NCBI RefSeq assembly: GCF_036711975.1 | Contig: NC_091976.1 | Span: 32,860,001 to 32,924,000, forward strand | DNA from: Onthophagus taurus | Lineage: Eukaryota; Arthropoda; Insecta; Coleoptera; Scarabaeidae | Reading direction: 5' to 3' | Length of the DNA: 64,000 bases | Shown here: positions 2,576-60,215 of the stretch, in pieces | Layout: the number at the start of each line of letters is the position of its first letter | How positions within the stretch are numbered: the stretch's first letter is position 1 | The notes under the pieces: model-generated | Databases searched by the model: none | Told to the model about the DNA's origin: nothing | Seen by the model: only the letters and a program-made list of their open reading frames with translations | Program-made: the position numbers and the translations under genes

Positions 2576-3320
2576 ATGAATTTCGACGACGATTTAGATT
2601 TTATTTCGGGAAAAAAGGTAAAATTTATTTAGTTTCAACTAATTTTTCACTTATTAAATAAATTTTAGGTGTCTGCTTTACAAGGTCGAAGATCCGGAGG
2701 TAAAGATAGTAATAAATCGGATTCTTTGGATGATGAACCAAGTAATTCACCACCGGAGGCTTTAATGTACGCTAGAAAAACTGGGAAATGGGCTGAGGAT
2801 AGTGCGAAATCTGGAAAGTACGATTTTAATTTGTTAGTTAATTAAAATTTGTATAAAAATTTTGATTTTAGGCGTAAAAATTCAACAAACATCATTGAAT
2901 TGTATGTAAAAAGATAAAAAATTTTTTTAATCAAACCAAGTTTATTTTAGGGAACGCTTCCAATCGGAAAAACACGAATCAGATGAAGATGATATCCCAA
3001 TAATACCTGATATTGAAGATTTTCAAGATGATAGTAGCAGCCCAATTGATGATCAAAATCTTGTGTATGCCCAAATTAATTGATTTTATAAAAAAATAAT
3101 GGTTACATGTTTTAGTTCCCATGGATTTAAATCAACTTATAAAGAACTTGACTCAGAATTGGTTAAAATAGAGACTCACCAACAATTTGTAAATAAATCA
3201 AAGATTGATTTATCTTTATTAACATCAAAATTAATCCCCGAAAAGGATATTAAAGAAAATGATGAGATTTGGACGATTGAGAGTTTATTTGAGAACGTTA
3301 TGTCATTCGTAAATACTTAA
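2576..3320 (+). CDS. IFT43: Intraflagellar transport protein 43 homolog
   Basis: Five exons: 2576-2617, 2669-2817, 2872-2901, 2951-3064 and 3116-3320; spliced CDS 540 bp, 179 aa, all junctions in phase. Known family role: a small IFT-A subunit for retrograde transport in cilia. Visible family features are a poly-acidic N-terminus, a central DDIPIIPDIEDFQ block, and the C-terminal signature with the pattern IDLSLLTSKLIPEKDIKENDE followed by W and a terminal LFENV helix. Human IFT43 is slightly longer (about 210 aa). Donor 3065 is chosen over 3063 because only it keeps the frame into the last exon. In insects cilia occur in sensory neurons and sperm, so expression is probably restricted; that is inference. 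Confidence 0.9.
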
Positions 3321-3445
3321 TTAGATTAAGAATTATTTATATTTTTTAAAATCGCAAATACGGTTAGAGGTTAAATTCTATCAACCTCTATTTTTATCCA
3401 AAGCACAAACACTTTCAGTTTAATCTTAAACTTCTTTTAAACAAG

Positions 3446-5394: not shown

Positions 5395-8300
5395 GAGATC
5401 GATATCATTCATTTGATGTTTTGGAAAATAAATCAAGCATATAAAATTTTAATTTATACTCACTTCGCCGAGGTCGCTTGCGGGCGAGGCGCTAGATATT
5501 TAGTTATATGAACGTAAATCCAATATAAATAATCGTTTTTAGTGCTTCGCCCGCAAGCAACCTCGGCGGTGTTAGACGATATGGTTCATTTGATGTTTTG
5601 GAAACTAAACCAAGCACACAACATTTCAATTTATACTCACTTCGCCGAGGTCGCTTGCGGGCGAGGCGCTAGATATTTAGTTATATGAACGTAAATCTAG
5701 TATAAATAATCGATTCTTGTGCCTCGCCCGCAAGCGACCTCGGCGGTGTTAGACGATATGGTTCATTTGATGTTTTGGAAACTAAACCAAGCACACAACA
5801 TTTCAATTTGTACTCACTTCGCCGAGGTCGCTTGCGGGCGAGGCGCTAGATATTTAGTTATATGAACGTAAATCTAGTATAAATAATCGATTTTTGTGCT
5901 TCGCCCGCAAGCAACCTCGGCGGTGTTAGACGATATGGTTCATTTGATGTTTTGGAAACTAAACCAAGCACACAACACTTCAATTTATACTCACTTCGCC
6001 GAGGTCGCTTGCGGGCGAGGCGCTAGAGTCTTCCAAAACTAACTGATAATGTTGTGTTGATATATTAAGTCTGCCGCCTCGCCCGCAAGCGATCTCGGCG
6101 ATTTGAGATGATACCGTTCATTTGATGTTTTGGAAAGTAAATCAAGCAAACAAAATTTTAATTTATACTCACTTCGCCGAGGTCGCTTGCGGGCGAGGCG
6201 CTAGATATTTAGTTATATGAATGTAAATCTAGTATAAATAATCGATTCTTGCGCCTCGCCTGCAAGCGACCTCGGCGGTGTTGGACGATATGGTTCATTT
6301 GATGTTTTGGAAACTAAACCAAGCACACAACACTTCAATTTATACTCACTTCGCCGAGGTCGCTTGCGGGCGAGGCGCTAGAGTCTTCCAAAACTAACTG
6401 ATAATGTTGTGTTGATATATTAAGTCTGCCGCCTCGCCCGCAAGCGATCTCGGCGATTTGAGATGATACCGTTCATTTGATGTTTTGGAAAGTAAATCAA
6501 GCATACAACATTTTAATTTATACTCACTTCGCCGAGGTCGCTTGCGGGCGAGGCGCTAGATATTTAGTTATATGAACGTAAATCTAGTATAAATAATCGA
6601 TTCTTGTACCTCGCCCGCAAGCGACCTCGGCGATGTTAGACGATATGGTTCATTTGATGTTTTGGAAACTAAACCAAGCACACAACATTTTAATTTATAC
6701 TCACTTCGCCGAGGTCGCTTGCGGGCGAGGCGCTAGATATTTAGTTATATGAACGTAAATTTAGTATAAATAATCGATTCTTGTGCCTCGCCCTCAAGCA
6801 ACTTCGGCGGTGTTAGACGATATGGTTCATTTGATGTTTTTAAAACAAAACCAAGCACACAACATTTTAATTTATACTCACTTCGCCGAGGTCGCTTGCG
6901 GGCGAGGCGCTAGATATTTAGTTATATGAATGTAAATCTAGTATAAATAATCGATTCTTGTGCTTCGCCCGGAAGCAACCTCGGCGGTGTTAGACGATAA
7001 TGATTCATTTGATGTTTTGGAAACTAAACCAAGCACACAACATTTCAATTTATACTCACTTCGCCGAGGTCGCTTGCGGGCGAGGCGCTAGATGTTTAGT
7101 TATATGAATGTAAATCTAGTATAAATAATCGATTCTTGCGCCTCGCTCGCAAGGGACTTCGGCGGTGTTAGACGATATGGTTCATTTGATGTTTTGGAAA
7201 CTAAACCAAGCACACAACTGTCACAAACTAGCTCTCGAGAACTTCTCGTTTCCCGTAGTGGGTTTCCTAGCTAGGTCCACGGAGCGGCTCGCGTACCCAA
7301 CTGTCCACGCACTACCGTTTTCTTGATAGCTAGCAATGACTGAGTTAGGGTTTGGCACACTGCATTCGTTCACTTGAAAGCGAACGGCAGTAATTTGAAA
7401 TTAAGAATAAAAATAGATTGAAAGAAAACGAAATTTCACTGCTAAAGAATAAGTTTGCTTTATTTTTGAACAAGAACGTATTATATTATATATAAAAAAA
7501 ACAACTGACAAAGATTTTAAAAAGTAAAAATTACATGACATAAGCTATTCAACAACATCATTACGAAATTTGCCGAGGTGGTTAGCAGGTTCAATGAGAA
7601 ATCGGAAGTTTAAGATTTTAATAACGCTTACCCGTTTGTTAAAGTAAAATATTCATCGAAGAAAGAGAATCCAATTCAACGAATTTTATAACTAAATTGC
7701 TATAAGTTCAAATCGCACGACTCGAATTTAAAAACACAACAAAAACTTTAATTTCCCGGTTTCGCCCGATGCTTTTCTGTTCCAATCCCGTAACCGACTC
7801 CCCGATTTTTTCTTCATTTCTTCCCTGCTCCATCTACTCTAACTGCCACCTCGGCACATTCCTGCCAGAACCGCCTACGTAGTATTTAGTCTGGACCCTC
7901 GGTTCTCAAGACGCAACTTCGTAATTAAATTACAAAGTTCTGCCTGTATTGCGTTTTATTATTTTTTTTTAATCGCTTTCGAATCCCAAAATGCGGTTTG
8001 TTACACAACATTTCAATTTATACTCACTTCGCCGAGGTCGCTTGCGGGCGAGGCGCTAGATATTTAGTTATATGAACGTAAATCTAGTATAAATAACCGA
8101 TTCTTGTGCCTCGCCCGCAAGCGACCTCGGCGGTGTTAGACGATATGGTTCATTTGATGTTTTGGAAACTAAACCAAGCACACAACATTTCAATTTGTAC
8201 TCACTTCGCCGAGGTCGCTTGCGGGCGAGGCGCTAGATATTTAGTTATATGAATGTAAATCTAGTATAAATAATCGATTCTTGCGCCTCGCCCGCAAGCG

Positions 8301-9185
8301 ACCTCGGCGGTGTTAGACGATATGGTTCATTTGATGTTTTGGAAACTAAACCAAGCACACAACATTTCAGTTTGTACTCACTTCGCCGAGGTCGCTTGCG
8401 GGCGAGGCGCTAGATATTTAGTTATATGAATGTAAATCTAGTATAAATAATCGATTCTTGCGCCTCGCCCGCAAGCGACCTCGGCGGTGTTAGACGATAT
8501 GGTTCATTTGATGTTTTGGAAATAAAACCAAGCACACAACATTTCAATTTATACTCACTTCGCCGAGGTCGCTTGCGGGCGAGGCGCTAGATATTTAGTT
8601 ATATGAACGTAAATCTAGTATAAATAATCGATTTTTGTGCTTCGCCCGCAAGCAACCTCGGCCGTGTTAGACGAGATGGTTCATTTGATGTTTTTGAAAC
8701 AAAACCAAGCACACAACATTTCAATTTATACTCACTTCGCCGAGGTTGCTTGCGGGCGAGGCGCTAGATATTAAGTTATATGAACGTAAATCTAGTATAA
8801 ATAATCGATTCTTGTGCCTCTCCCGCAAGCGACCTCGGCAGTGTTAGACGATATGGTTCATTTGATGTTTTGGAAACTAAAGTAAGCGCACAACATTTCA
8901 ATATATACTCACTTCGCCGAGCTCGCTTGCGGGCGAGGCGCTAGATATTTAGTTATATGAATGTAAATCTAGTATAAATAATCGATTCTTGTGCCTTGCC
9001 CGCAAGCGACCTCGGCCGTGTTAGACGATATGGTTCATTTAATGTTTTGGAAACAAAACCAAGCACACAACATTTTAATTTATACTCACTTCGCCGAGGT
9101 CGCTTGCGGGCGAGGCTCTAGAGTCTTCCAAAACTGATTATGTTGTGTTGATATATTAAGTCTGCCGCTTCGCCCACAAGCGCCC
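5395..9185. repeat. 177-bp palindromic satellite array
   Basis: About 17 tandem copies of a ~177-bp unit. Each has a left arm beginning CGCCGAGGTCGCTTGCGG, a ~54-nt loop, and the reverse-complementary right arm, so each unit could form a hairpin with a 26-bp stem. Two loop types exist: the common one (ATATTTAGTTATATGAACG) and a rarer one (GTCTTCCAAAACTAACTGAT near 6027, 6383 and 9121). The rare type recurs as part of a near-identical two-unit block (5993-6170 and 6347-6525), a higher-order repeat. The array is interrupted at 7219-8005 by a separate insertion. Confidence 0.95.
7219..8005. mobile_element. Probable solo LTR inserted in the 177-bp array
   Basis: A 787-bp non-repeat block interrupts one satellite unit. 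It starts TGTCACAAAC and ends GTTTGTTACA, that is TG...CA ends with a short imperfect inverted repeat, and is flanked by CAAC on both sides (7215-7218 and 8006-8009). Removing the block plus one CAAC restores a normal satellite unit. This fits an LTR left after recombination between two LTRs. No coding sequence is seen. A short-TIR DNA element is the alternative, since up to 7 bp of flank could be assigned to the duplication. Confidence 0.6.
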
Positions 9186-9740
9186 TCAAGACAAGAGTAT
9201 ACCAGTAGAAGAAGTCTTCCAAGTTAATACAGGTAAATTAAAGTCGCCAACTACGAAGATGACATCATCTGGATTACGATCATTAATCCTCTGCAGCTGT
9301 AGAAGAAAGCTGTCGATCTCAACAGTATCATTGGAAGGCAGATAAACAACACGACAAAACAAGCGACATTAGAGACACAGGAATACTCCTTTTGGCCGCC
9401 ACAAGAACACCACCTCCATCGAGCTTGGTAGATAAAGAAGATCTGTCACAACGGTAGGTCACATATCTATCGCGGAGAATCTTCCCACTAAGCACTGAGT
9501 CGTTCAAAAATGTCTCCGTAAGAAGTATAAAATCGTATTAACGCTGTGGAAATTAATAAAACATTTAGTGGTTTTCGTATGTAGACTACGGACGTTTTGG
9601 TAGTAAAAAGACCAGACCATACAAGATTAAGAGAAAATCACCAAAAAAAAATCACATCTTAGAGTCTCAACAAATCAACATGAGACTTTATAATCACCAT
9701 CCTCGATCTGTCATCCTTGCGGGCATGAACAACGCAATTT
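9186..9740 (-). pseudogene. APE-type non-LTR retrotransposon fragment (CR1/Jockey-like)
   Basis: Reverse-strand translation gives the start of an exonuclease-endonuclease-phosphatase domain: YYQNVRSLHTK near 9610-9580, then LLTETFLND, GGGVLVAAK, and the catalytic loop VVGDFNLP near 9250-9230. These carry the expected Asn, Glu and Asp-Asn catalytic positions of retrotransposon endonucleases. The frame is broken at least twice (near 9540 and 9365), so it is dead. A further open piece (NCVVHARKDDRSRM, 9730-9690) may be the end of the upstream ORF. The right end stops where the 177-bp array begins. Confidence 0.75.
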
Positions 9741-11317
9741 TTAGTCCATATATACAGGGTGATTCACATAAGAACCGACACAGAGCAGAGACATGTAGAG
9801 GACAATAAATTAAGATGATTTAACGCAACTTATCTCTATACTAAGTTGTACCCCTGAGGAGTTATAGGCCTTCAAAGTTGGGTCTTACATTTTTAAAATA
9901 TTGAATATCTTCGTAATACATTAAGCTAGAGAAACCAAATTTGGTATACGTTATGAGTGTACCGAGGGTATTAATTGGTAGCAAGTTGAGGCATTCCAAA
10001 GGATTGATTAAGGGTGATGGTCCCCTAAATTTTGACAGATTTTTTTAACCTTTTGGTGGTTTTAATGCATTATTACCTCATTTCATGTGGAATTTAATTC
10101 TAAAACTTTTCTTACTCTTATTGTTTTTTAAAAAACTTTGTCGTTTTCATAAAAAACTTAAATAACTAAAGACACTTATTTCGTAATTTTATTTAAAATA
10201 AGCGGAAATACAGTAGTCGGCTATGAAATTGTACGTCAAACTTGACAAATAGATTATAAAGTTATTTGACAACAAGGTTTTATAACCTATTTGTCAAGTT
10301 TGACATACAATTTCACAGCCGACTACTGAATTTTCGATGATTTTAAGTAGCTTTAACGAAATACGTGTCTTTAGTTATTTCAGTTTTTTATGAAAACGAC
10401 AATGTTTTTTAAAAAATTATAAGAGTAAAAAAAGTTTTAGAATTAAATTCCACATGAAATGAAGTAGTAAATTATTATATCCGCCAACGGGTTAAAAAAA
10501 TATGTTAAAATTTATAGTACCATCACCCTTAATCAACCCTTTGAAATGCCTCAATTGAGATCAATTTGCTACCAATTAATATCCTTGGTACACTCATAAC
10601 GTATACCAAAGTTGGTTCTTCTAGCTTAATTTATTACGAAGATATTGAACTTTTTAAAAATTTAAGAGCCAACTTTGAAGGCCTATAATTCCTCAGGTGT
10701 ACAACTTCGTATAGAGGTAAGTTACTTTAAGGCTCCTTAACCGAGTTTGTCACCGTAGATTTCGAATTACTTCCTTATTTATTAATGGATTGGATTAATT
10801 TATCATTTGTCATGTTTCTACAATAGTTATGAATCCGGGACAAGAACAGAAAATGAAATTTGAAGAAAAATATTGCCTTATTTTTGAAAATAGTAAGATT
10901 TTTACGATTTTTCTTCTTGGCCCGGATGTAAAACAATAAAATAGAAACATTATTCCTGTAGCACTTTTACGAAATATTAATAATAAACCCGTAATTAGTA
11001 ATTTACGGTTTTACATTAAATTTTAATATTTTGGAATATATTTTACTTCCCGGATCTCACGAGCGATGATTGGTTAATGAAAAAAACATGTGGGCTGGCT
11101 ATGTGAATCTCTGGCGAGTGGTTTGTAACGTAAAAAAACCGCAGACATAGATAAAAAACAAGTTTGTAGACATAGTTCTTGTCTACCGACTGCATACTAT
11201 GAAAGGGGAGGAAGCTTACTTTTTCTGATATCGTGCTATACAATGTTCTGATTATCGATTTGCGCGTAAATACGAACCAAAAGTGTATTTTTATATTATT
11301 ATTATTTTATATAAATA

Positions 11318-15391: not shown

Positions 15392-15712
15392 ATAAAGACT
15401 GTAATATAAATAATTAGTTAATAATTATTATTAAGGTTAATTCCCCAAACAATTTTATTTAATTATAAGGTAAATAATTCACTTGAGAATTAGTAGAAAT
15501 AAAAATAATTTATTTTATGTAAATATTGATATAACCTCAATTTTCATCGATTTTGACAAAACGTTTATGAATTAATAAATAAAATTTATGATATGATTAA
15601 TTAATTATTTAAATTGTGTTTTTATTTTTACCCATCATTTTTAAAAACGTTAAGAATTATTGAAACCAGCAAAAAACATAAAATAAAGATTTGCTTGGAA
15701 AGAGATGACATC
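15392..15712. other. 3' flank of the LPMO gene
   Basis: AT-rich; an AATAAA overlaps the stop codon at 15391-15396 and further AATAAA motifs follow at about 15498 and 15575, so polyadenylation probably occurs here. No gene. Confidence 0.5.
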
Positions 15713-18545
15713 GAATGTTCCTAATTCTAGATGTAGTGTTAATTCTAGTTCTAGTGATAGTGCAAAACTAGAACTAACACTAAACCTAGATCTAGAATCA
15801 CTCGGGTTTAGCTGCACGTCTCTCAAGACGGCTAAACCCGAATGATTCTAGTTCTAGGTCTTGTGTTAGTTCTAGTGATAGTGTTAGTGCAAAACTAGAA
15901 CTAACACTAGACCTAGAACTAGAAACATTCGGGTTTAGCCGCACGTCTCTCAAGACGGCTAAACCCGAATGATTCTAGTTCTAGGACTTGTGTTACTTCT
16001 AGTGATAGTGCGTCTGAGGACGCACGGCTAAACCCGAATGTTTCTAGTTCTAGGTCTAGTGTTAGTTCTAGTATTAATTCAATAAGAATATGTAACACAG
16101 TGATGTCTAATGCTAATTAGCGCTACCTAGCATTGTCACTAAAACTAACACAAGACCTAGAACTAGAATCATTCGGGTTTAGCCGTCTTGAGAGACGTGC
16201 GGCTAAACCCGAATGATTCTAGTTCTAGGTCTTGTGTTAGTTCTAGTGATAGTGTTAGTGCAAAACTAGAACTAACACTAGACCTAGAACTAGAAACATT
16301 CGGGTTTAGCCGCACGTCTCTCAAGACGGCTAAACCCGAATGATTCTAGTTTAAGGTCTTGTGATAGTTCTAGTGATAGTGCTACTGCAAAATTAAAACT
16401 AACACAAGACCTAGAACTAGAATCATTCGGATTTAGCCGGACGTCTCTCAAGACGGCTAAACCCGAATGATTCTAGTTCTAGGTCTTGTGTTAGTTCTAG
16501 TGATAGTGTTAGTGCAAAACTAGAACTAATACTAGACCTAGAACTAGAAACATTTGGGTTTAGCCGCACGTCTCTCAAGATGGCTAAACCCGAATGATTC
16601 TAGTTTAAGATCTTGTGTTAGTTCTAGTGATAGTGCTACTGCAAAATTAAACTAACACAAGACCTAGAACTAGAATCATTCGGGTTTAGCCGCACGTCTC
16701 TCAAGACGGCTAAACCCGAATGATTCTAGTTCTAGGTCTTGTGTTAGTTCTAGTGATAGTGTTAGTGCAAAACTAGAACTAACACTAGACCTAGAACTAG
16801 AAACATTTGGGTTTAGCCGCACGTCTCTCAAGACGGCTAAACCCGAATGATTCTAGTTTAAGATCTTGTGTTAGTTCTAGTGATAGTGCTACTGCAAAAT
16901 TAAACTAACACAAGACCTAGAACTAGAATCATTCGGGTTTAGCCGCACGTCTCTCAAGACGGCTAAACCCGAATGATTCTAGTTCTAGGTCTTGTGTTAG
17001 TTCTAGTGATAGTGTTAGTGCAAAACTAGAACTAACACTAGACCTAGAACTAGAAACATTTGGGTTTAGCCGCACGTCTCTCAAGACGGCTAAACCCGAA
17101 TGATTCTAGTTTAAGGTCTTGTATTAGTTCTAGTGATAGTGTTAGTGCAAAACTAGAACTAACACTAGACCTAGAACTAGAAACATTTGGGTTTAGCCGC
17201 ACGTCTCTCAAGACGGCTAAACCCGAATGATTCTAGTTTAAGGTCTTGTATTAGTTCTAGTGATAGTGCTAGTGCAAAATTAACTAACCCGAATGATTCT
17301 AGTTCTAGGTCTTGTGTTAGTTCTAGTGATAGTGTTAGTGCAAAACTAGAACTAACACTAGACCTAGAACTAGAAACATTTGGGTTTAGCCGCACGTCTC
17401 TCAAGACGGCTAAACCCGAATGATTCTAGTTTAAGATCTTGTGTTAGTTCTAGTGATAGTGCTACTGCAAAATTAAACTAACACAAGACCTAGAACTAGA
17501 ATCATTCGGGTTTAGCCGCACGTCTCTCAAGACGGCTAAACCCGAATGATTCTAGTTCTAGGTCTTGTGTTAGTTCTAGTGATAGTGTTAGTGCAAAACT
17601 AGAACTAACACTAGACCTAGAACTAGAAACATTTGGGTTTAGCCGCACGTCTCTCAAGACGGCTAAACCCGAATGATTCTAGTTTAAGATCTTGTGTTAG
17701 TTCTAGTGATAGTGCTACTGCAAAATTAAACTAACACAAGACCTAGAACTAGAATCATTCGGGTTTAGCCGCACGTCTCTCAAGACGGCTAAACCCGAAT
17801 GATTCTAGTTCTAGGTCTTGTGTTAGTTCTAGTGATAGTGTTAGTGCAAAACTAGAAATAACACTAGACCTAGAACTAGAAACATTTGGGTTTAGCCGCA
17901 CGTCTCTCAAGACGGCTAAACCCGAATGATTCTAGTTTAAGGTCTTGTATTAGTTCTAGTGATAGTGTTAGTGCAAAACTAGAACTAACACTAGACCTAG
18001 AACTAGAAACATTTGGGTTTAGCCGCACGTCTCTCAAGACGGCTAAACCCGAATGATTCTAGTTTAAGGTCTTGTATTAGTTCTAGTGATAGTGCTAGTG
18101 CAAAATTAACTAACCCGAATGATTCTAGTTCTAGGTCTTGTGTTAGTTCTAGTGATAGTGTTAGTGCAAAACTAGAACTAACACTAGACCTAGAACTAGA
18201 AACATTTGGGTTTAGCCGCACGTCTCTCAAGACGGCTAAACCCGAATGATTCTAGTTTAAGGTCTTGTATTAGTTCTAGTGATAGTGCTAGTGCAAAATT
18301 AACTAACCCGAATGATTCTAGTTTAAGGTCTTGTATTAGTTCTAGTGATAGTGCTAGTGCAAAATTAACTAACCCGAATGATTCTAGTTTAAGGTCTTGT
18401 GTTAGTTCTAGTGATAGTGCTACTGCAAAATTAAAACTAACACAAGACCTAGAATTAGAATCATTCGGGTTTAGCCGTCTTGAGAGACGTGCGGCTAAAT
18501 AGTAGTTCTAGGACTTGTGTTAGTTCTAGTGATAGTGCAAAACTA
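15713..18545. repeat. 126-bp double-palindrome satellite array
   Basis: More than 20 copies of a ~126-bp unit made of two palindromes. P1 spans CTAGTTCTAGGTCT ... AGACCTAGAACTAG, centred on GCAAAACTA. P2 spans ATTCGGGTTTAGCC ... GGCTAAACCCGAAT, centred on CACGTCTCTCAAGAC. Deleted half-units occur (about 17281 and 18107). A block of about 370 bp at 17036-17440 reappears unchanged 826 bp later, a recent higher-order duplication. Open frames on both strands are products of the repetition. The array lies between the LPMO and guanylate cyclase genes. Confidence 0.94.
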
Positions 18546-18948
18546 ATCTAAAACGTGTAGTAAAAGTGTAGTTCAATAAAAATGTGTAACATATTTAAAA
18601 AAATTTCTCATTCTAGGTCTAGTGTTAGTTCTAGTCCTAGTGTTAGTCTAGTTTTATTTGTTATTCAGCACTAAATTATTGTATATTTTTATTGAGCTAT
18701 AACAAACACCGTATTAATCGAGGTTTTACTATAACGTCAAATTATATTATTAGATTTAATTCTTTATTTAATTTTTGTTAGTTTGCGCATGCGATTCAAA
18801 TATGTATTGATTATTGTTGAAAGCTTGACTTTGAGGAGGTGAGCTTGAAAGCTCACTCGCAGTTGGATGCGAGAATTGAAGGAGAATTGTGGTATGCACA
18901 CAACTTTTCCTACACGTTTGTTGAATTGGTTCAAAACGCGATCATAAA
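18546..18948. other. 5' region of the guanylate cyclase gene
   Basis: After a last satellite scrap (18610-18650) the sequence becomes less repetitive and probably holds the promoter and 5' UTR of the cyclase gene. No TATA box or initiator was assigned. Confidence 0.45.
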
Positions 18949-33335: not shown

Positions 33336-33474
33336 GTCTAAAAATCAACTACAGTGATACAATAAAGTAGCTACATACACCCTAGAAAATGATAATATCT
33401 CAGCTCCTAAAATATAATTCAATGACTTTTTTAAACGAAGGATATTAGAAGTATATATTATTTTAATACAAAGT

Positions 33475-34310
33475 CTTGTGTTGGTTCTAGTGATAGTGCT
33501 AGTGCAAAACTAGGTGAACTTGAACTTGCTATAAACTAGTTCCTATTCATTTAGATAAGTTTTTCATGACTATCAACTAATTTTTAGTCATTTTGAGCAA
33601 CATGGATTGTTTAAAAACTAATTATTAATCATTTAAACAAGTATAAAACTATGCTCAACCAGTTCTCAATGATTTTGAACAACATGAGATGGCTATGAAC
33701 TTATTTTTAATCATTTTGAACAATTTTGCTACGCTATAAACCAATTTTGGACAATGTTGGTGCAGTTTTCAGTCGTTCTAAGCAACCTAGTCATTTGCTA
33801 TAAACTAGTTTTTATACATTTAGACAAGTTTTTAATGACTATCAACTAGTTTTCAGTCATTTTGAGCAACATGGATTGTTTAAAAACTAGTTGTTAATCA
33901 TTTAGACAAGTATAAAATTATGGTCAACCAATTTTCAATGATTTTGAATAACATAACATAGCTATGAACCTATTTCGAAACATTTTTCTACCTTATAAAG
34001 CAATTTTGGACAATGTTGGTGCAATTTTAAGTTATTCTGAGCAACCTAAACTTGCTATAAACTAGTTCTTATACATTTAGACAAGTTTTTAATGACTATC
34101 AACTAGTTTTCAGTCATTTTGAGCAACATGCATTGTTTAAAAACTAGTTGTTAATGATTTAGACAAGTATAGAATTATGCTCAACCAATTTGCAATGATT
34201 TTGAATAACATGACATGGCTATGAACCTATTTCGAAACATTTTGCTACCTTATAAAGCAATTTTGCACAATGTTGGTGCAGTTTTTAATCGCTCTGAGCA
34301 ACCTAGAACT
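33475..34310. repeat. ~260-bp tandem repeat
   Basis: Three copies of a unit with GACTATCAACTAGTTTTCAG, then ATTTTGAGCAACATG, TTTAAAAACTAGTTGTTAAT and CAATGTTGGTGCAGTTTT. Starts near 33524, 33797 and 34052. It is preceded and followed by fragments of the 126-bp family (33475-33515; 34310-34545). Confidence 0.85.
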
Positions 34311-34555
34311 TAGATACTTTCTAATTCTAGGTCTGTGTTAGTTCTAGTTTTACACTTGCACTGTCACTAGAACTGATATTAAACCTAGAAACATTTGGGT
34401 TTAGGCGTAGGAATGATTCTAGTTCTTGGTCTAGTGCTGTATAATAATTAAAACTAGAACTAACACTAGACCTAGTTTTACACTAGCACTGTTACTATAT
34501 AGAACTAACACTATACCTAGAACTAGAATCATTTGGGTTTAGCCGCAAGTCTCTA
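34310..34555. repeat. 126-bp-family fragments
   Basis: Degenerate palindromic copies with CTAGGTCTGTGTTAGTTCTAG and AACACTAGACCTAG motifs, the same family as the 15.7-18.5 kb array. Confidence 0.8.
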
Positions 34556-35111
34556 AAATTTAATTTTACATTTGTTAGAAGTGAGGTTAAGAAAAAAATC
34601 ATTTTCTCCGAAACGATTTAAGCAATGAAACTATAGAGATCCAACTCAAGATTTTCAATGTTTTAGCGCCCCCGATGGCCGGGGGCGGCCGATGTCTTCG
34701 AAAACGGCCGTGTTGATACTCGAAAATGATGTTAAGGATTCTGAATCTCACTTTTCCGACACAACCTAACCTCACTTTTTCAAATGACATTTTTTTTGAC
34801 GTTTCATTAAAAAAAATTATTTAACTTACTCAGTTTTTGATTTAAAACTAAAAAGGAATTTGCGTGATAGACGTTTTAGTCACTCGTACACATTTTACAT
34901 TATAAAGAAAGTAATTCGTGTTTAACGTGGTTCTAAATTAGGTTAAAATATTTGACATGATGAGAAGATAGTTACAAACGTATATTTTAAGGCTTTTTGC
35001 GGCAGATGGCGCTATCTCCTATGCGTCTTAAAGTGACATTTTTTGACGTTTCATTAATAGTTCGAAGTATTTATTGTGTAAGTATTAAGTATTTAATTTT
35101 AATTTTCTTAA
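34556..35111. repeat. Composite dispersed repeat, copy 1
   Basis: Starts with an end of the 181-bp satellite, then unique sequence with a GC-rich hairpin (GCGGCCGATG … AACGGCCGTG near 34684-34713) and a conserved tail GGCAGATGGCGCTATCTCC. A second copy lies at 42319-42852 with high identity and the same left-hand neighbour (126-bp family). Confidence 0.85.
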
Positions 35112-35184
35112 GTAAAAAGCATTGGGAGGTCTTGAATTGTTGCTATTTATTTTCGATTGTATATCGACTCCAGTTGTAACATTT

Positions 35185-35310
35185 GCACGTCTTTCAAGAC
35201 GGCTAAAATCGAATGATTCTAGTTCTAAGTCTTGTGTTAGTTCTATGCTGGTGTAAAACTAGAACTAACACAAGACCTAGAACTAGAATCATTCAGGCGA
35301 AATATTATCA
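35185..35310. repeat. 126-bp-family unit
   Basis: One near-complete double-palindrome unit (GCACGTCTTTCAAGACGGCT … CTAGTTCTAAGTC … GACCTAGAACTAG). Confidence 0.85.
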
Positions 35311-35344
35311 TTTTTGGGCTGTATGTAGACTTTATTGTATCACC

Positions 35345-35745: not shown

Positions 35746-36153
35746 TTTACATATTTATTTTATTTCAAAATTTTAGTTAATCAATAAGAAGAATGTTAAA
35801 ACGTTAGACGTCCGTGTAGAGGTCGTTTGGTTGTTGTGAGTAAAAGAAGAGAGAGTGTGTGAGAGACTCATTGGCGACGCCTCGCGATGTTCCTCCAACG
35901 TGTGCACGTACGAAGACGGTTGTCATTGAGAAAGCCACTCAGCCACGTTCTTGAGGAGACTGCAACGTTGGCGCAAGTGGCACACCTTCAGTCGTATCGT
36001 AGCCGGTCTACAACGCGGTTTAACAACAGTTAAACGCTAGTAATAAAAAAATTTTAAATAATTTAAAAAAAATTCGTATCGTTATCATAATCGAAAAATT
36101 GATAAAAAACTTATAGTGTGAGATAAGACGCGGGGTCTTATCGGAGTGGAAAA
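35746..36153 (+). promoter_or_regulatory. Promoter and 5' UTR region of the GRXCR1-like gene
   Basis: The 300 bp before the start codon are less AT-rich than their surroundings, as for a 5' UTR. A candidate initiator TTCAGTCG has its A at 35990. At +28 (36017) the sequence GGTTT partly fits the downstream promoter element RGWYV, with the last base off. No TATA box. This is a weak prediction. Confidence 0.35.
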
Positions 36154-39100
36154 ATGAAGCAAATTTCAGTTTCCTCGCCGCCGCCGCCGCTGCCTCCAAA
36201 GACCCGTAGCCGAAGTTCCCCACCAGAAGAAGAAACAACGGTACCTGAAAGATCCGTTGTTGTTACTGGTACTGCTGATGGTATTCCTTCAGATTCCGCG
36301 TTCATCTCGCATCAACCCGACCTCAACTTAAATCGTCATGTTGTTAAAATCCATATTAATCCAGAAGAATCAATATTAAACGAAGACCCAACAGTTAGTA
36401 GCAGCAGTAGTATTCGGATAAGCGTTAATAACGAAGAAATGATCGCCACATCAGGGATATCAGAAATCCATCAGGATAAATCAACGTTTTTTTATTACGG
36501 CAGTGGTTTTAACGGAATGTCCAGCGGGCAAATTTCGCCAAGTGATACCCTCGATTCGGGTACTTGCAGCGACATGGACGGAACACCACCACCGTTACCA
36601 AAGAAAAAATCCTCAAATGGTGTAACCGTAACCTTGATTCAATCAACAACAAATCAAAACAAACGATTATTTCAACAGGAAGATAGCGATAACGATAGCA
36701 ATATAAGTTGCGATTCATTAAACAGTTCCGATTCGAAACAAGCAAGCGCGTATTTACCTCAAGGACTACTTAAAGATATCCGGGAAAGGTCGTCGAAGAT
36801 AACCACGCAATCTCAATCACCAAATATCATCGACGAGGACGAAGAAAACACTAAATTATTAGACAAACCTATCGTTACAAAAGAAATCAATAATTTAATT
36901 ATTACGAAAAAAATTCAAGTTGACGAAAATTCGTATCAATCGAGGAAAGAATTGGAAAAGGAAGATCGACGACTTTCAAAAATGATGATTTACGACACCG
37001 ATAAATACTACAAGTTCCACTTAAACGAGAACGTTATTGATCCGGATGAAGAAATCGGGAAGACGAAAAAAAATCATCCCGACGATGAGTATTTTGCGGG
37101 ATACAAGGATTTTTCGGGGGCCGTTGAAGGCCCAAAAACGATTCGTAGCGCTAAAGGAACGGTGCGAGGTGTTAAGAATCGTGTTCGAGCCGGTATCGCG
37201 ACGTTTTTACAAATTAACTCAACAGAAAAGGTAAGTTATTAATGTTATTGTAAAATCACTTTGGATTAATAATTTTAATACACACAAATTCGACCAGCTA
37301 TATGTACAACAATCTAGTGCTAAATAACAATTAAAACTAGAACTAACACTAGACCTAGAACTAGAACTAGAACCATTCGGGTTTAGCTGTGCATCTTCAG
37401 ACGTACGTTCACCTTGAAATCTTAAAATTAAGTACAAATCAAGCTCCAACATTCCTTTATAACCTCAGAAAGTTTTATTGCTTAAATCCTAACAGTTTTG
37501 GAGAAATTAATTTTTTCCTTAATTTGACTTTCGATAGACGTCAATTTCAATAGGTGGTTTTTAAATATTCCTATATAATGAACTGTTCACCATGAAAACT
37601 TAAAATTTGGTACAACCCAACCTCAAACCTTCCTTTATAACCTCAAAAACTTTCATTGTTTAAATCCTAACAGTTTCGGAGAAAATAATTTTTTTCCTGA
37701 ACCTCACTTCTAGCAAATGTCAGATTAATGAGGTGATTTTTAAACAATGATATATAATGAACTGTTCACTATGAAAACTTAAAATTTGGTACAACCCAAC
37801 CTCAAATCCTCCTTTATAACCTCAAAAAGTTTCATTGTTTAAATCCTAACAGTTTCGGAGAAAATATTTTTTTTCCTGAACCTCACTTCTAGCAAATGTC
37901 AGATTAATGAGGTGATTTTTAAACAATGATATATAATGAACTGTTCACTATGAAAACTTAAAATTTGGTACAACCCAACCTCAAATCCTCCTTTATAACC
38001 TCAAAAAGTTTCATTGTTTAAATCCTAACAGTTTCGGAGAAAATAATTTTTTTCCTGAACCTCACTTCTAGCAAATGTCAGATTAATGAGGTGATTTTTA
38101 AACAATGATATATAATGAACTGTTCACTATGAAAACTTAAAATTTGGTACAACCCAACCTCAAATCCTCCTTGATAACCTCAAAAAGTTTCATTGCTTAA
38201 ATCCTAACCGATTCGGAGAGAACAATTTCTTTATCTTAACCTAACTTTCAATAAACGTCAAATGAGATAGGTGATTTTTAAACGTTTATATATCATGAGT
38301 TACTCGCACTGAAAACTTAAAATTTGGTACAACCCAACCTCAAACCCTCCTTTATAACCTCAAAAAGTTTCATTGTTTAAATCCTAACAGTTTCAGAAAA
38401 AATAATTTTTTTCTTGAACCTCACTTCTAGCAAATGTCATATTAATGAGGTGATTTTTAAACAATGATATATAATGAACTGTTCACTATGAAAACTTAAA
38501 ATTTGGTACAACCCAACCTCATACCTTCCTTTATAACCTCAAAAAGTTTCATTGTTTAAATCCTAACTGTTTCGGAGAAAATTATTTTTTTCTTAACCTC
38601 ACTTCTAACAAACGTCATATGAAATAGGTGATATTTAAACAATGATGTACAGGGTGTGTCATATGTCTGGAATACGTCAATGGCGTTATTTCGGCGCCTA
38701 CTTTGATTGTAATTAGCTGATTTAAAACTTTCAAAAAACGCATTTTTTCTCGATTTTTTCTTATACAACTATATGACTTGATATGTTCATCGCATACAGG
38801 GACTTATCCTCTATAAAAGTATGCAAAAAATATATGCATCCCATTTAAAATAACAATATTGGTTACCATAGCAACGAAACAAAGAACTGTGTAAACAAGC
38901 AAGTATAGTCAAAAAATGCGCCACAATTAATAAAGAATTTTTTATTTGAAACATTTCTCTTTAAAACCACAAATGGCGGAATTATTGGCTAAATTCCAGA
39001 CATTTGATACACCCTGTATAATGAACTGTTCACTATGAAAACTTAAAATTTGGTACAACCCAACCTCAAACCTTCCTTTATAACCTCAAAAAGTTTCATT

Positions 39101-42100
39101 GCTTAAATCCTAACCGTTTCGAAGAAAGCAATTTTTTTTTCTTAACCTAACTTTCAATTAACGTCAAATTAAGTATTTGATTTTTAAACGTTTATATATC
39201 ATGAATTATTCATCGCCAAAATTTTAAAATTAGTACAACCCAACCTCAAACCTTCTTTTATAACCTCAAAAAATTTCATTGCTTAAATCCTAACCGTTTC
39301 GGAGAAAATAATTTTTTTCCTGAACCTCACGTCTAGCAAACGTCAGATTAATGAGGTGATTTTTAAACAATGATATATAATGAACTGTTCACTATGAAAT
39401 CTTAAAATTTAGCACAACCCAACCTCAAACCTTCCTTTATAACCTCAAAAAGTTTCATTGCTTAAATCCTAACCGATTCAGAAAAAACAATTTTTTTATC
39501 TTAATCCAACTTTCAATAAACGTCACATGAAATAGGTGATTTTTATACAATGATATATAACGAACTATTCACTATGAAATCTTAAAATTTGGCATAACCC
39601 AACCTCAAACCTTCCTTTATAACCTCAAAAAGTTTCATTGCTTAAATTCCAACAGTTTCGGAGAAAATAATTTTTTTTCCTCAATCTTACTTAGCCGCGT
39701 CTGAAGACGCACGCCTAAACCCGAAACTTACTAGTTCTAGGTCTAACTTTAGTGCAATGAAAAATTTAAGGTTTTACTGTCTTTTAAAACAATTTAAAAA
39801 AAAACAATTTTGATATAAAACAATCGCGTATAACCAATAATAATAATTAAGATAACAATTTAAATCGTATTAATTGTATAATTGTGATTGACTCGCGATT
39901 AAAAAAAAAAGGTTGAATTGGTTGTTTTTAAAGTTATTATTCCAATTAAAAAAACGAGTTTTGAAAAAATAATTTCTAAATTGTGACGTATTTCATTAAA
40001 ATTCCATTGCGATAACATCCTTCCGAGAATAAAAAGAACCATTTCATTCTACTTACGTTCGTTTTAGCCGTACTTAAACTGTACAACTGTACATTTTCCG
40101 GTTTACAAAATGATTTCTTTATCTAAAATTGAAATAGAAGTTGTTTTTGTAATTTTGTTCTCGTAATGAGCGAAAACAGAAAAAATCCATTTTGATATCT
40201 CCGATATAAATTGAATACAATGCTCAATTAAATAGATTTACGTTTTTGTTTGATATAAGAGTTTATAACACGTAAAGGTAGTTTACAACGAAATTTGTAT
40301 TGAATTTTTATGGGGAATTAAACTTGAAAAACGCCTTGATTTATTTAGGGTTAAAATAGGTTCATTTTTTTTTGTTGTTGTTGCAATTGGAATTCTATTA
40401 TGTGGTAAGGTTCTGCAATAGAAGACTGTTATAGATACTGCCATTGGAATAATATATTTGCTAATAAAAGACTATAGTATTAATAGACGGGTAGATACTG
40501 TTGATAGAAGATTTCTGCTAATGCAAAAGCCTAGGTACTGCGTATTAGAGACCAGTTACTGCTAATAGAAGACCAGATATTGTTGGCAAAGGGCTAGATA
40601 CCACTTAAAATGGACTACTTACTGCTAATATAATTCTAGATACCGCTGGCAGAAAGTTAGATACTGCTAATAGAAGACCACAAATCCTGATATGTTGGCA
40701 GAAGACCAGGTACTTATAATAGAAGACTAAATAGTGCTAGCAGAAGTGTAATGTTGCATGTTGCAAATAAAGATCTGCTTACTGAAGACAAGATACTTAA
40801 TAATGCTGGCAAAAGATTAGGTATTGCCAATTAAAGCCTATATATTGCTAATAGAAGTCTAGCAGGTTCTATTGGTAAAGGACTCATCATTTAATTTTCC
40901 GAATTCATCCATATATTTTTGTTTTAAGTTGACATCCTGCGATACTGAAACACGTAAATAGAAATAATTTCTAAGTTTGCTGTTAGTAACAGCCGATAAG
41001 AGTAGCTAAAAGAAGTAGATACTTCATTTTCTAATTATGCAACAACTTTTTACATATCTATCGATATTTATGCATGTCTATCTTTTAGTAATTTTGTCTC
41101 AAATTTAAGCTTAATCAAATAAATGTCTTTGGTATTGAAATATTTGAAATTCCTTAACGCCATCTAATAGTCGTCGGTTGTAAATGTAAAAGACTGTCGT
41201 TTCTGATTGTATAGGTGAAATTAAATAACTGTAACGCTTTTAAATTCCGATCGATTTTCTTATTTGAATCAAACAAAGAAAATTCCCGCTTAAATCCAAT
41301 TAATTTGAGACATTTCCATAATGTTCTGTTAGAAATAAACCGTTTGAAATTAAAATAAAATCAATTTACAATTATTAGATTAAACAATTAGTATCTAAAA
41401 TATGTTATCAAATAAGCAGTAATTTTAAAGATAAACTAAACGACCTTACATAAAAATGTTAAACGCACCTTTCAAGTTAAGTGCTTAAAAATTCGTATTT
41501 AATTACACTTAGTTTCGAAATATCGCTTCGGGATAGAATAGATATGGTATAATATCAAAGTTCATAACGAAATATGTGAATATATACCATAATATACCAT
41601 TGAGTGGAACGTTGTAATAACTAATAAACGACGTCAATGCTATCGGAATTTATGTGGAAAAATGATCTCCATTATTTTAAGATTTATTATCGGAAAACAA
41701 TAGGAGTCGCAAATGAACGTTTAATTCTAATTCAACTTCAACGACGTTTTGTATTCTTTTTTTGTAAATTTTTACTTTGGGGAAATCGAATTTTTGTTTC
41801 TTTGACCCGCTTTCTCCGGATAATTCGGGCGCACCTGTAAGTTTTTTTTAAAAGAAGAAATCTTTTTAAAACAACCATCAAGTAATTAACCAAATCAATT
41901 TTTTTGTTCATATATTAACAAATTCGTATCATATATACTTAGATATGCTGGAAAGAAGATTTGTCATAAATTTTGATTTCTCCACATCGATTCTTGCACA
42001 CACCTTTTGTAAGTCGATAAGTCAATAAGGACTACCGGGAATTTTATATAAAAGTATATGAAAGCAGTAACCATAGTTACGAAACTACTATGCACTTGCA

Positions 42101-45100
42101 CTGTCACACATAAAATGTAATATAGCTTAATAATACAGGCATTGAGTAGTTTTGTAAAGGAAAAGTTTTGCTTGGAAATGTTTCTGTTTTAAGAGACGCA
42201 CGGCTAAACCCGAATGCTTCTAGTTCTAGGTCTTGTGTTAGTTCTAGTGGTAGTGTTAATGTAAAACTAGAACTAGCACTAGAACTAGAAAGTATCGGGT
42301 TTAGCCTGAAGCCCAAGAAATTAAAATTTAATTTGACATTTGTTAGAAGTGAGGTTAAGAAAAAAAATCATTTTCCTTGAGTTGGATCAAGATTTTCAAT
42401 GTTTTAGCGCCCGCGATGGGTGGGGGCGGCCGATGTCTTCGAAAACGGCCGTGTTAATACTCGAAAATGATGTTAAGAATTCACACTTTTCCAACACAAC
42501 CTAACCTCACTTTTTCAAATGACATTTTTTTTGACGTTTCATTAAAAAAAATTATTTAACTTACTCAGTTTTTGATTTAAAACTAAAAAGAAATTTGCGT
42601 CATAGAAGCTCGTTTTAGTCACTCGTTTTACATTTTACGTTATAAAGAAAGTAATTCGTGTTTATCGTGGTTCTAAATTACGTTAAAATATTTGACATGA
42701 TGAGAAGATAGTTACAAACGTATATTTTAAGGCTTTTTGCGGCAGATGGCGCTATCTCCTATGCGTCTTAAAGTGACATTTTTTGATGTTTCATTAATAG
42801 TTCGAAGTATTAATTGTGTAAGTATTAAGTATTTAATTTTAATTTTCTTAATTGAATAAAATCTAAAACACGCATGCAATACAACGTTTTATCCACAATC
42901 ACACTCATTTAGAATCAGAATCGCCAAAATTTCATCTGATGCACAGAGTAAGGCAGAGAGTTAGCTCACCGGGAAAATGATAGGCCATTCTCTATCTCTT
43001 ATTATCACATCATAATACCGATATTTTCTCTTTGTCATCTTGATAGAAATCCTTAGTAGATGGCGTACATGTCGTTAGTAATATTACAGAAAGCTGTTGA
43101 CTTTGTTTAAGCGGTTTTGACATTTTATGTATGTCACATGTCACACAGTCCAGTGAGGTTAAGGAAAAAATCATTTTCTCCGAAACGGTTAGGATCAAAA
43201 CAATGAAACTTTTTGAGGTTATAAAGGAACGTTTGAGGTAGGGTTGTACCATTTTTCAAGATTCCGCGACAAATAATTCATGATATATAAACGTTTAAAA
43301 ATCACCTATCTAATTTGACGTTTATTGAAAGTTGGGTTAAGATAAAAAAAATTGTTTTCTCCAAAACGGTTAGGATTTAATCGATGAAACTTTTTGAGGT
43401 TATAAAGGAAGGTTTGAAGTTAGATTGTGCCAAATTTTAAGGATCACACTCGAATGGGTAGCCTATAGGAAAGTTAGAGATATCTTCATGAGCGATATTC
43501 CTGTATATTTGAAAAGAAAGGCTTTCATCAATGCGTGCTTCCGTTTATAACATACGGCTCTGAAATTTTAACATTAACGGTGATCACTGCCAGGAGGCTC
43601 AAAGTAACGCAAAGCTAGATGCAGAGATCTATAGATAGATGCGAGAATATTAACTTGATTTATGATAAATCTTTAGGTCTCAGTAAATTTTATCCGAAGG
43701 TTCTCTTAAAGTTCGAACTTTCTAACTCTAAAGGACCCTTGATAAGTTGTTTCAAGGATGACTACTTGACGTAAAAAGGGAAATAGGTTAAAAGATGAGA
43801 GAGGTTCACGTTTTACGAACGAAAATTAAATTTCGACATTGATTATATGTGACGTGTTAATTTCCGATTTTACTTCTCTTCCCTTTTCGTTTTATTAAAT
43901 GAAATCCGTTCTCGGTAGATCCTAGCTATATGATAAAGGACCCCGAAAACAATGGATCCGGTAGCTTTCGAAACAATAAGCTCCGTACAATGAGGAAGTA
44001 TTAAGTTCGTTTCAAACAATTTATTTGTAAAAAATTTCATTAAAATTGACTCGAAATACTTAAAGAGATTTATCCGCCTACGTTAAAGAAAGTGGTGAAA
44101 GAAGCGGAAAGATTATTTATGGGTATGTGAATCCGGTGGCAAAATCTCGTGGCGAAGTCACATTATTACCTTGGAAGACTCCTTGTCACGTTGGTGCGAA
44201 ACGTGCCGTGATTAAATATATATTATCTCTGCTAAATATACGAGATTTTGTGCTACTGACGCACGAAATGTACTCTATTAACAAAACCGGACGCAAAACG
44301 AAGCAACTTTGAATGATTATTATGCAACGAATGATTGTGTTAGTTTCTGAAAATGTTATTTCATTAATAAGACGAATACTTTTTTTTAACCAACTTTCCT
44401 TTCACTTTCAAACCGATTAAGTTGTAAAAAGAAAAATGCAATAAATAAATATATGATTGCACATTCTTGTAGTGATTCCGAGAGCGAAACTTTCGTTTCG
44501 AACAAAAAATTAATAAGAACTTTTAAAAACATCACACGCGATCCTTTTAAAGTGAAGCGAATCGATTCCGAATAGAAACGAATCTATTAATATGATTTAA
44601 AACAAAGAATTTATAAAATTATGAACAAAGAAAAAATTACCTTGACTTTCAAAAGCATGTTTTCAATACGTTCCCAACACGTGTAATTAATCGTTTTCTC
44701 AACACTCACCGTGTGTTAATTCATAATTTTTCAATGTCAAACTTTTAAAATGAAACCTACTTTCTTAGGTTGTGAATTTTAATTGAAACGTGTTTATTAT
44801 AAATCGTGTTTCAATAAAGTTCTTTATCATTTTTTAAAATATTATTTTAAAAACAAAAAAGTTTTATTTATCCTTGTTTTTCTTTTCCATCTACTTTACA
44901 AAGCGGTATATCTTCGTTGTTTTTAGAGATAGCGCAATATTAAATACACCACTAAGTAGAAAACTTGATTTTTTCTTCATCTAACTAAAACATAGAAATA
45001 GAAACATTTTCGTTTAGCCGAATGTCTCTTAAGACTTAAGATTTGTTAAAAATCAACCTCTATTATGAGGTTATAAAAGTTCTATTGTTTAAATTTTAAC

Positions 45101-56084: not shown

Positions 56085-56250
56085 CTAAACCTAGTTCTAA
56101 GTCTTGTGTCTAAGTGTGTTCTAAGTCTAATTAACAAAGAAAAGTAGACCTAGAACTAGAGCGGCTAAACCCGAAACTTTCTAGTTCTAAGTCTAGTGTT
56201 AGTTCTAGTGCTAGTGTTAGCTCTAGTTTTAAAACAACCAAGCAGGCGCG
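56085..56250. repeat. 126-bp-family fragments
   Basis: Degenerate units (ACCTAGTTCTAAGTCTTGTG, GACCTAGAACTAGAGCGG, CTAAACCCGAAACTTTCTAG) just before the satellite array. Confidence 0.82.
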
Positions 56251-56254
56251 GCTA

Positions 56255-57115
56255 AGTGAGATTAAGGAAAAAAAAGTATTTTCTCCGAAACGGTTAGGAT
56301 TTAAACAATGAAACTTTTTGAGGTTATAAAGAAAGGTTTGAGGTTGGGTTGTACCAAATTTTAAGTTTTTACGACGAATAATTCATGATATACAAACGTT
56401 TAAAAATCACCTATCTAATTTGACGTTTGCTAGAAATGAGGTTAAAAAAAAATTATATTTCCGAAACGGTTAAGATTTAAGCAATGAAACTTTTTGAGGT
56501 TATAAAGGAAGGTTTGAGGTTGGGTTGTACCAAATTTTAAGTTTTCACTGCGAATAATTCATGATATATAAACGTTTAAAAATCACCTATCTAATTTGAC
56601 GTTTGCTAGAAGTGAGGTTAAAAAGAAATTATCTTTCCGAAACGGTTAAGATTTAAGCAATGAAACTTTTTGAGGTTATAAAGGAAGGTTTGAGGTTAGA
56701 TTGTGCCAAATTTTAAGTTTTCACGGCGAATAATTCATGATATATAAACGTTTAAAAATCACCTATCTAATTTGACGTTTGCTAGAAGTGAGGTTAAAAA
56801 AAAATTATATTTCCGAAACGGTTAAGATTTAAGCAATGAAACTTTTTGAAGTTATAAAGGAAGGTTTGAGGTTGGATTGTGCCAAATTTTAAGATTTCGT
56901 AATGAACAGTTCACTATATATCATTGTTTAAAAATCGCCTCATTAATCTGACGTTTGTTAAAAGTGAGGTTAAAGCAAAAATAATTTTCTCCGAAACAGT
57001 TAGGATTTAAATAGTGAAACTTTTTGAGGTTATAAAGGAAGGTTTGAGGTTGGGTTATTTTAAGTTTTCACTATCCAATTTGACGTTTATTGAAAGTCAC
57101 GTTAAGATAAAAAAA
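56255..57115 (+). repeat. 181-bp satellite, plus orientation
   Basis: About five units, mostly of the TCATGATATATAAACGTTT sub-type. It forms the left side of an inverted pair with 57975-60215. Confidence 0.92.
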
Positions 57116-57974: not shown

Positions 57975-60215
57975 GAAATTTTCGAAGAAAAGAATTTTTT
58001 TATCTTAACCTGACTTTCAATAAACGTCAAATTAGATATGTAGGTGATTTTTAAACGTTTATATATCATGAATTATTTGCTGTGAAAACTTAAAATTTGG
58101 TACAACCCAACCTTAAACCTTCCTTTATAACCTCAAAAAGTTTCATTGCTTAAACCCTAACAGTTTCGGAGAAAATAATTTTTTTATCTTAACCTGACTT
58201 TCAATAAACGTCAAATTGGTTAGGTGATTTTTAAACGTTTGTATATCATGAATTATTCGCCGTGAAAACATAAAATGTGGTACAACCCAACCTCAAACCT
58301 TCCTTTATAACCTCAAAAAGTTTCATTGCTTAAATCTTAACCGTTTCGGAAATATAATTTTTTTTTAACCTCACTTCTAGCAAACGTCAAATTAGATAGG
58401 TGATTTTTAAACGTTTATATATCAAGAATTATTCGCCGTGAAAACTTAAAATTTGGCACAATCCAACCTCAAACCTTCCTTTATAACCTCAAAAAATTTC
58501 ATTGCTTAAATCCTAACCGATTCGGAGAAAACAATTTTTTTATCTTAACCCAACTTTCAATAAACGTCAAATTAGATAGGTGATCTTTAAACGTTTATAC
58601 ATTATGAATTATTCGCCCTGAAAACATAAAATTTGGTACAACCCAACCTCAAACCTTCCTTTATAACCTCAAAAAGTTTCATTGCTTAAATCTTAACCGT
58701 TTCGGAAATATAATTTTTTTTTAACCTCACTTCTAGCAAACGTCAAATTAGATAGGTGATTTTTAAACGTTTATATATCAAGAATTATTCGCCGTGAAAA
58801 CTTAAAATTTGGCACAATCCAACCTCAAACCTTCCTTTATAACCTCAAAAAGTTTCATTGCTTAAATCCTAACCGATTCGGAGAAAACAATTTTTTTATC
58901 TTAACCCAACTTTCAATAAACGTCAAATTAGAGGGGTGATTTTTAAACGTTTATACATCATGAATTATTCGTCCTGAAAACTTAAAATTTGGTACAACCC
59001 AACCTCAAACGTTTCTTTATAACCTCAAAAAGTTTCATTGTTTAAATCCTAATGGGGTCATACACACTTATTAAATTTAGAGAAAATTTTTATGTCAAAC
59101 GATATATGCAAGTATATGCATGAACACAAAGTAAAAGAAATATTTTGATCAATTTTATATTTTGCGTAATTTGAAGTGAAAAATAGCAAATATTCAAACG
59201 AAATAATTTCGCGGCTTTTCTGTGACGTAGGAACCGCACTGCCTAAAACAAGTTAAATTGTCCGTTAGATAGCGCTTGCGGTGTGACAGTGTCAAAATAA
59301 AACCATGGATGTAATAGAGTGTCTCTATTACATCCATGAACAAAACATAATAAACATAACCTACAAACACTCTATCTCTTTTCAATACAACCTAAATGAC
59401 GTTCATCTCTTTCTCGCATTTGAGCGGGGAGCAGGGGACGCAAAAGTGAGAATCGTACGTCATCAACGCGGGAATTTTAAAAGCGCAAATGGGTATATAA
59501 ATTTTCAATAATTTTTTTAACAATGACTGTTCGAAAATAAAAAAAAAAAAAATAACGGTAACTATATTTTTATATAAACTTTCAGAAAATATAATAAAAA
59601 AAAAATCGTGTATGACCCCATTGTTTCGGAGAAAATTATTTTTTTCCTAACCTCACTTCTAACAAACGTCAGATTAATGAGGTGATTTTTAAACAATGAT
59701 ATATGGTGAACTGTTTACTATCAAATCTTAAAATTTGGCACAATCCAACCTCAAACCTTCCTTTATAACCTCAAAAAGTTTCATTGCTTAAATCCTAACC
59801 GTTTCGGAGAAAACATTTTTTTTATCTTAACCCAACTTTCAATAAACGTCAAATTACAGAGGTGATTTTTAAACGTTTATACATCATGAATTATTCGTCC
59901 TGAAAACTTAAAATTTGGTACAACCCAACCTCAAACGTTCCTTTATAACCTCAAAAAGTTTCATTGTTTAAATCCTAATTGTTTCGGAGAAAATTATTTT
60001 TTTCTTAACCTCACTTCTAACAAACGTCAGATTAATGAGGTGATTTTTAAACAATGATATATGATGAACTGTTTACTATCAAATCTTAAAATTTGGCACA
60101 ATCCAACCTCAAACCTTCCTTTATAACCTCAAAAAGTTTCATTGTTTAAATCCTAACCGTTTCGAAGAAAACAAGTTTTTATCTTAACCTGACTTTCAAT
60201 AAACGTCAAATTGTT
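57975..60215 (-). repeat. 181-bp satellite, minus orientation
   Basis: About nine units, alternating the two sub-types, interrupted by a 566-bp TIR element at 59054-59619. Opposite in orientation to 56255-57115. Confidence 0.92.
59054..59619. mobile_element. TIR element GGGGTCATACAC, 566 bp
   Basis: Ends GGGGTCATACAC and GTGTATGACCCC, flanked by AT on both sides (59052-59053, 59620-59621). Excision restores CCTAATTGTTTCGGAG, the normal satellite sequence. At 59304-59338 it holds a perfect hairpin (CATGGATGTAATAGAG, TGT, inverse). Superfamily unknown; no transposase. Confidence 0.8.

Follow-up and report, generated by a model that had tools for sequence, protein, structure and literature searches.

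In the 64,000-nucleotide (nt) stretch of the Onthophagus taurus genome analysed here (NC_091976.1, positions 32,860,001 to 32,924,000; hereafter the window), a satellite array is fused at both ends to inverted arms of a common palindromic repeat, and this satellite-palindrome join is real and unique and does not represent an element moving as one unit. With moderate confidence we favour the reading that a piece of local satellite was joined at both ends to halves of the palindrome, which was interrupted just past its centre of symmetry. An initial annotation of the window had likened the same locus to a transposon with terminal inverted repeats (TIRs) and satellite cargo, and the genome searches used below to weigh the two readings covered the 290.8-Mb assembly with its 33 contigs.

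The array occupies positions 37407-39692 (Tandem Repeats Finder, TRF, period 179-180) and was resolved by TRF and comparisons within the window into two forward-strand blocks of ~180-bp units, 37407-38647 and 39019-39692. Between them lies a nested miniature inverted-repeat transposable element (MITE; 38648-39018, ~370 bp) with 26-bp inverted ends, TACAGGGTGTGTCATATGTCTGGAAT, and TA at both ends. Because the MITE occupies the length of two units, the array amounts to ~10.6 units with the MITE subtracted, and not to the ~12 first counted, although the layout itself, a satellite bounded by inverted arms, proved to be real. The left arm (37302-37406, + strand) runs from its outer end, ATATGTACAACAATCTAG..., through a CTAG-rich arm and GGGTTTAGC to the centre CTTCAG and, by eye, ~9 bp of the far side, ending in ...ATTCGGGTTTAGCTGTGCATCTTCAGACGTACG. 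Its mirror image, the right arm (39691-39771, - strand), begins with CGCGTCTGAAGACGCACGCCTAAACCCGAA... and still contains the palindrome centre with 14 bp beyond it. Family homology extends outward to ~37302 on the left, most family matches starting at query position 7, and to ~39771 on the right. Mirror arms had been reported as ~80-bp inverted copies; the part that can be aligned in mirror orientation is shorter, 57 nt with 81% complementarity (37347-37403 and 39698-39754), and no longer inverted pair exists in 36700-40600 (E 4.5e-10 within the window). Both joins are close to the centre CTTCAG, the left one 9 bp past it by eye or 25 bp (score 15) by automatic extension and the right one 14 bp past it, and the two arms together resemble the outer halves of module palindromes.

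The palindromic module to which these arms belong consists of a CTAG-rich arm, GGGTTTAGCC, a centre such as GTCTTCAGAC and then the mirror image. A 20-base core of the module has 2287 + 2374 = 4661 exact matches genome-wide and none for the reversed control, a count that is inflated by module arrays such as the one at 15.7-18.4 kb. The latter (15712-18650, 127-bp unit, identified by TRF and window comparison) is composed of the module, and the earlier description of a 126-bp repeat made of head-to-head halves held for it, while the suggestion that these are the TIRs of empty copies found no support. The module recurs at many places of the window, and we additionally sampled 20 regions, each 10 kb long, that surround the core matches listed first on contig C1. 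Palindromes and module arrays occur throughout these regions, and the module covers 11% of the resulting 264 kb (window plus 20 loci), a sample chosen for the module and drawn from a single contig end. Both sides are present in 272 of its 347 module cores; the inner partner is missing in 68, the outer arm in 4 and both in 3. Among the 68 without an inner partner, 40 stop no more than 8 bp from the centre and 50 continue for less than 30 bp beyond it; 18 extend as far as intact copies do and are probably cases in which the partner was missed. The simplest reading of the one-sided module copies is breakage at the centre with subsequent joining.

We then asked where else the two junctions occur. 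The left junction was found at 1 place in the assembly at up to 3 mismatches (control 0). The right junction, GGCTAAGTAAGATTGAGG, has 2 exact copies, 39679-39696 and 56250-56267, both within the window; a third place, with 1 mismatch, contains no module and no satellite, and 4 matches were obtained with the reversed control. The second exact copy belongs to another array of the same satellite (56162-57070, - strand), which carries module pieces at 56162-56231. Both right junctions carry GATT; of the nine other units matched in the window, one has AATT at this point and the rest GGTT. The same two palindrome bases are absent at both junctions. One right junction is therefore a local copy of the other, 16.5 kb away. 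The satellite was found at none of the 20 sampled module loci.

By its sequence, the satellite of the neighbourhood is a local subfamily. Mean unit identity within the array is 0.879 and comparison with the six other satellite blocks of the window gives 0.826-0.882, whereas matches elsewhere in the genome, among the matches listed, are mostly at 73-79%, so that the source of the satellite is local. When the edges of other arrays of this satellite were inspected (20 regions, 10 groups, array limits taken as the limits of the satellite matches), the module was present in 1 of the 20 regions, ~1.3 kb from the array. A search of the same 20 edge regions for a common carrier gave few common stretches and no carrier was seen: L032 and L038 share a 111-bp stretch next to the arrays, L038 and L039 match each other over 85-95 bp, a comparison in which the L039 flank was noted to be itself tandemly repeated, and L045 and L046 have a 257-bp inverted match. 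On contig C3, two arrays of the satellite stand in opposite orientation (2065530-2067317, -, and 2069880-2071697, +) with ~2.6 kb between them, and a 257-bp stretch adjoining one of them recurs inverted next to the other at 97%.

Junctions between the module and tandem DNA are not restricted to this satellite. In the window and the 20 loci we counted 23 non-module tandem arrays (periods of 50 or more and lengths of 250 or more, merged manually), and 7 of their edges lie within 20 bp of the module, compared with 0.65 expected from random placement in module-free stretches. With the window excluded, 3 edges of 9 arrays do so against 0.41 expected (p 0.009). For two arrays, both in the window, the module is no more than 20 bp away from either edge, compared with 0.008 such arrays expected over all records. 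One different tandem array of the window, with a 257-bp unit (33522-34311, within 33457-34557), is flanked by module pieces at distances of 8 bp and 6 bp. Joined to module arms at the centre or close to it are the satellite described here and repeats of 122 bp and 174 bp; other arrays join the outer side of the module. The 174-bp array belongs to the locus L017 (C1:1032301-1042300), where tandem arrays stand beside the module at 986-5053 and 7155-9985: it has same-direction module copies near both edges, and a 190-bp array at this locus has the module 1 bp off its right edge. Besides itself, the junction of the 174-bp array with the module has one weak match that covers most of its length (76%, query 1-142 of 156) among the matches listed, with 40 candidates scored.

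With these observations the reading as a foldback or TIR transposon (FB, Galileo or Tetris type), in which the arms would be terminal inverted repeats and the satellite their cargo, becomes quite unlikely. Inverted terminal arms of the kind expected of such elements are present (the 57 nt at 81%), and their outer limits match the recurrent outer limits of module copies. However, the genome holds no dispersed copies with the same arm-cargo junctions, these being unique or only locally duplicated, and the satellite is missing at the sampled module loci. As checks, the initial annotation had proposed to align the flanks for target duplications and to look for inverted ends pairing within 5 kb. 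At the outer limits of the arms, the exact positions of which are uncertain, the longest direct match is 4 bp, and 281 of 300 random pairs reach at least 4 bp, so there is no target duplication beyond chance. Convergent solo arms 200-5000 bp apart make up 5 of 19 consecutive pairs in the 264 kb under a strict filter, which is no excess (13 are in the same direction and 1 is divergent); a loose filter, which admits chance matches, gives 12 convergent, 14 same-direction and 4 divergent pairs of 30, at about the edge of p = 0.05, and these convergent pairs speak for the transposon to that extent. We also ranked 374 arms by similarity as a matched-TIR test, in which the right arm was 251st of 373 for the left arm and the left arm was 24th of 373 for the right. 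This test was dropped: in 143 intact hairpins, a half resembles its own partner no more closely than it does distant arms, a median of 69% of which score at least equally, and the ranking therefore cannot decide whether the left and right arms are a pair. A Helitron-like (HINE/Helentron) element has tandem repeats in its centre, inverted repeats in subterminal position and a hairpin close to one end, and the hairpin-forming GC-rich core, the CTAG-rich stretch and the central tandem repeats of our locus resemble this plan. Here too the junctions are not dispersed, and no pair of constant termini was found for the locus, Helitron terminal motifs not having been searched systematically, which makes us regard such an element as very improbable.

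Two separate module copies or fragments could also have come to lie at the edges of an existing array, through insertion in or next to it and subsequent deletion, with a mirror orientation that is coincidental. In favour are the very large number of module copies, many of them in the window, at least three further insertions within or next to satellite blocks of the window (the MITE at 38648-39018 and two more seen by eye), and the palindrome centre kept by both arms, as expected of two independent copies. Against this stand the position of both joins near the centre and the two window arrays with the module close to both edges, and we consider independent copies possible but rather unlikely. 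Under the favoured interruption of one palindrome, the centre, as cruciform- or hairpin-prone DNA, would break and be mended with neighbouring satellite DNA, and a local copy of the right junction would arise later. Several points weigh against this sequence of events. Break and repair are deduced from the anatomy of the locus, and automatic extension places the left join 25 bp, rather than 9 bp, beyond the centre. Given that both arms retain the centre, a single split palindrome needs a duplication of ~24 bp, which is possible but would be a diverged one, or else two palindromes are required. Copies that end at the centre could equally mean that the centre is the true end of an element, and the ratio of 68 to 4 is only indicative because the tests for inner and outer breaks differ in motif and distance. 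As for the adjacent arrays, 2 of the 7 edges are those of the locus itself, 2 of the 3 edges outside the window come from L017, and the p value outside the window weakens to 0.025-0.027 at distances of 50 and 120 bp.

The claim that a mobile system spreads satellites, although not supported for the satellite and the module ends of our locus, is supported for the 122-bp array: the genome contains a satellite-carrying mobile system, with other ends and another satellite. At the locus L010 (C1:169001-179000, 8080-9268) a module arm broken at GTGTCTTCAGAC is fused to this array. With up to 1 mismatch allowed, the exact junction between the 122-bp array and the module occurs at 234 places, compared with 0 for the control, and the 151-bp junction region of L010 matches all 40 scored places (381 candidates) at 99-100%, over the full length or minus one base; these 40 include L010 itself, and two of them are 0.9 kb apart. 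With a 721-base query around the left side of the junction, 24 of 40 scored matches start at 166-181 (22 of them at 178-181) and 16 start at 1. A second near-complete copy of segment 181-595 follows in the same orientation in 16 of 40 (87-97%), and a partial copy in 5 more. The composite thus reads as a ~410-bp TIR element, the broken module arm with the 122-bp array, and the same TIR element again in the same orientation, and 12 of the matches that start at 178-181 span 1,235-1,580 bp. All ten copies examined begin with TACTCTGTTTTTAAACC... and end with the mirror image ...GGTTTAAAAACAGAGTA, with TA on both sides. They represent 7 distinct sites, four copies sharing one flank, and 5 of the sites are CTAG. 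When the flanks of the shared site are joined, all 40 scored places match without insert, at 92-96% across the joint. TA-flanked inverted ends together with empty sites mean that the composite moved as a unit.

With its TIRs, TA duplication and empty sites, the composite has the features of a non-autonomous TA-target (Tc1/mariner-like) element, and the ends that move it are not those of the module. Its inverted ends have no match in the window at up to 3 mismatches. The CTAG-rich module would be expected to offer it many targets. Left elements agree at 98-100% among copies, whereas left and right elements differ by 3-13%, which suggests that the composite was assembled once and then spread. 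On the right side of the 122-bp array of L010, another dispersed repeat takes over (9269-9900), and its first part has 41 other places at 86-96% among the matches listed (40 candidates scored). Of 16 further module loci, one (L054) has the 122-bp array, starting ~80 bp beyond the module core.

Taken together, these data lead us to a tentative and, on balance, doubtful generalisation, namely that broken palindrome centres capture tandem DNA, and that one fused arm with its array then came to lie between two copies of a TA-target element, the whole unit spreading to over 200 places. If true, satellites could become dispersed by a two-step route of capture and then hijack. How short satellite arrays enter gene-rich DNA is an open question, for which our locus suggests palindrome-centre capture as one route of entry, the 122-bp composite being a palindrome-satellite fusion that became mobile. 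Comparing the two could show whether capture or mobilisation limits the spread of satellites.

As to the setting of the array, a 371-codon open frame (36127-37242, stop to stop) lies upstream and is followed by GTAAGT at 37231, ~175 bp before the array begins. The array is therefore probably inside an intron; a Pfam scan of the last 144 codons of the preceding exon or frame returned 0 families. By eye, other satellite blocks of the window are also interrupted: a ~2-kb stretch with ~45-bp inverted ends (TACAGTGATACAATAAAG...) at ~33350-35335 splits another block of the same satellite, and an insert with the inverted ends GGGGTCATACAC...GTGTATGACCCC lies within a block at ~59051-59621. Positions 34500-35100 and 42290-42850 appear, again by eye, to be diverged copies of one composite of module, satellite stub and common non-satellite sequence.

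Junctions of satellites with palindromes have precedents. In the phBglII400 satellite of molluscs, abrupt satellite junctions map to palindromes according to the cited account, which also refers to palindrome-associated satellite junctions in the Nasonia PSR repeats (Reed et al. 1994, as cited in PMC5139131). As described there, the phBglII400 palindrome lies within the satellite unit (PMC5139131), whereas at our locus it belongs to a separate dispersed repeat. Tetris of Drosophila virilis resembles our locus in that inverted arms are associated with ~200-bp tandem repeats; in the description available to us these repeats lie inside the TIRs and the element makes target duplications of 8-10 bp (PMC4079207), whereas our satellite is enclosed by arms to which it is unrelated, and no target duplication beyond chance accompanies it. 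The TCAST transposon-like elements of Tribolium castaneum likewise associate satellite sequence with inverted repeats, but there the satellite is reported as part of ~269-bp TIRs, with 34 copies near genes and some ACT duplications (PMC3411249), while the satellite-arm junctions of our locus are unique. For the 122-bp composite, the closest system among those compared is miDNA4, a Xenopus Tc1/mariner MITE with an internal satellite, and the published descriptions agree with it in the TA-type MITE and in the internal tandem array of variable copy number (PMC12628747, PMC9659126). Unlike miDNA4 as described in these sources, the O. taurus composite is built from two ~410-bp TIR elements in the same orientation, which bracket the array together with a broken arm of the palindromic module.

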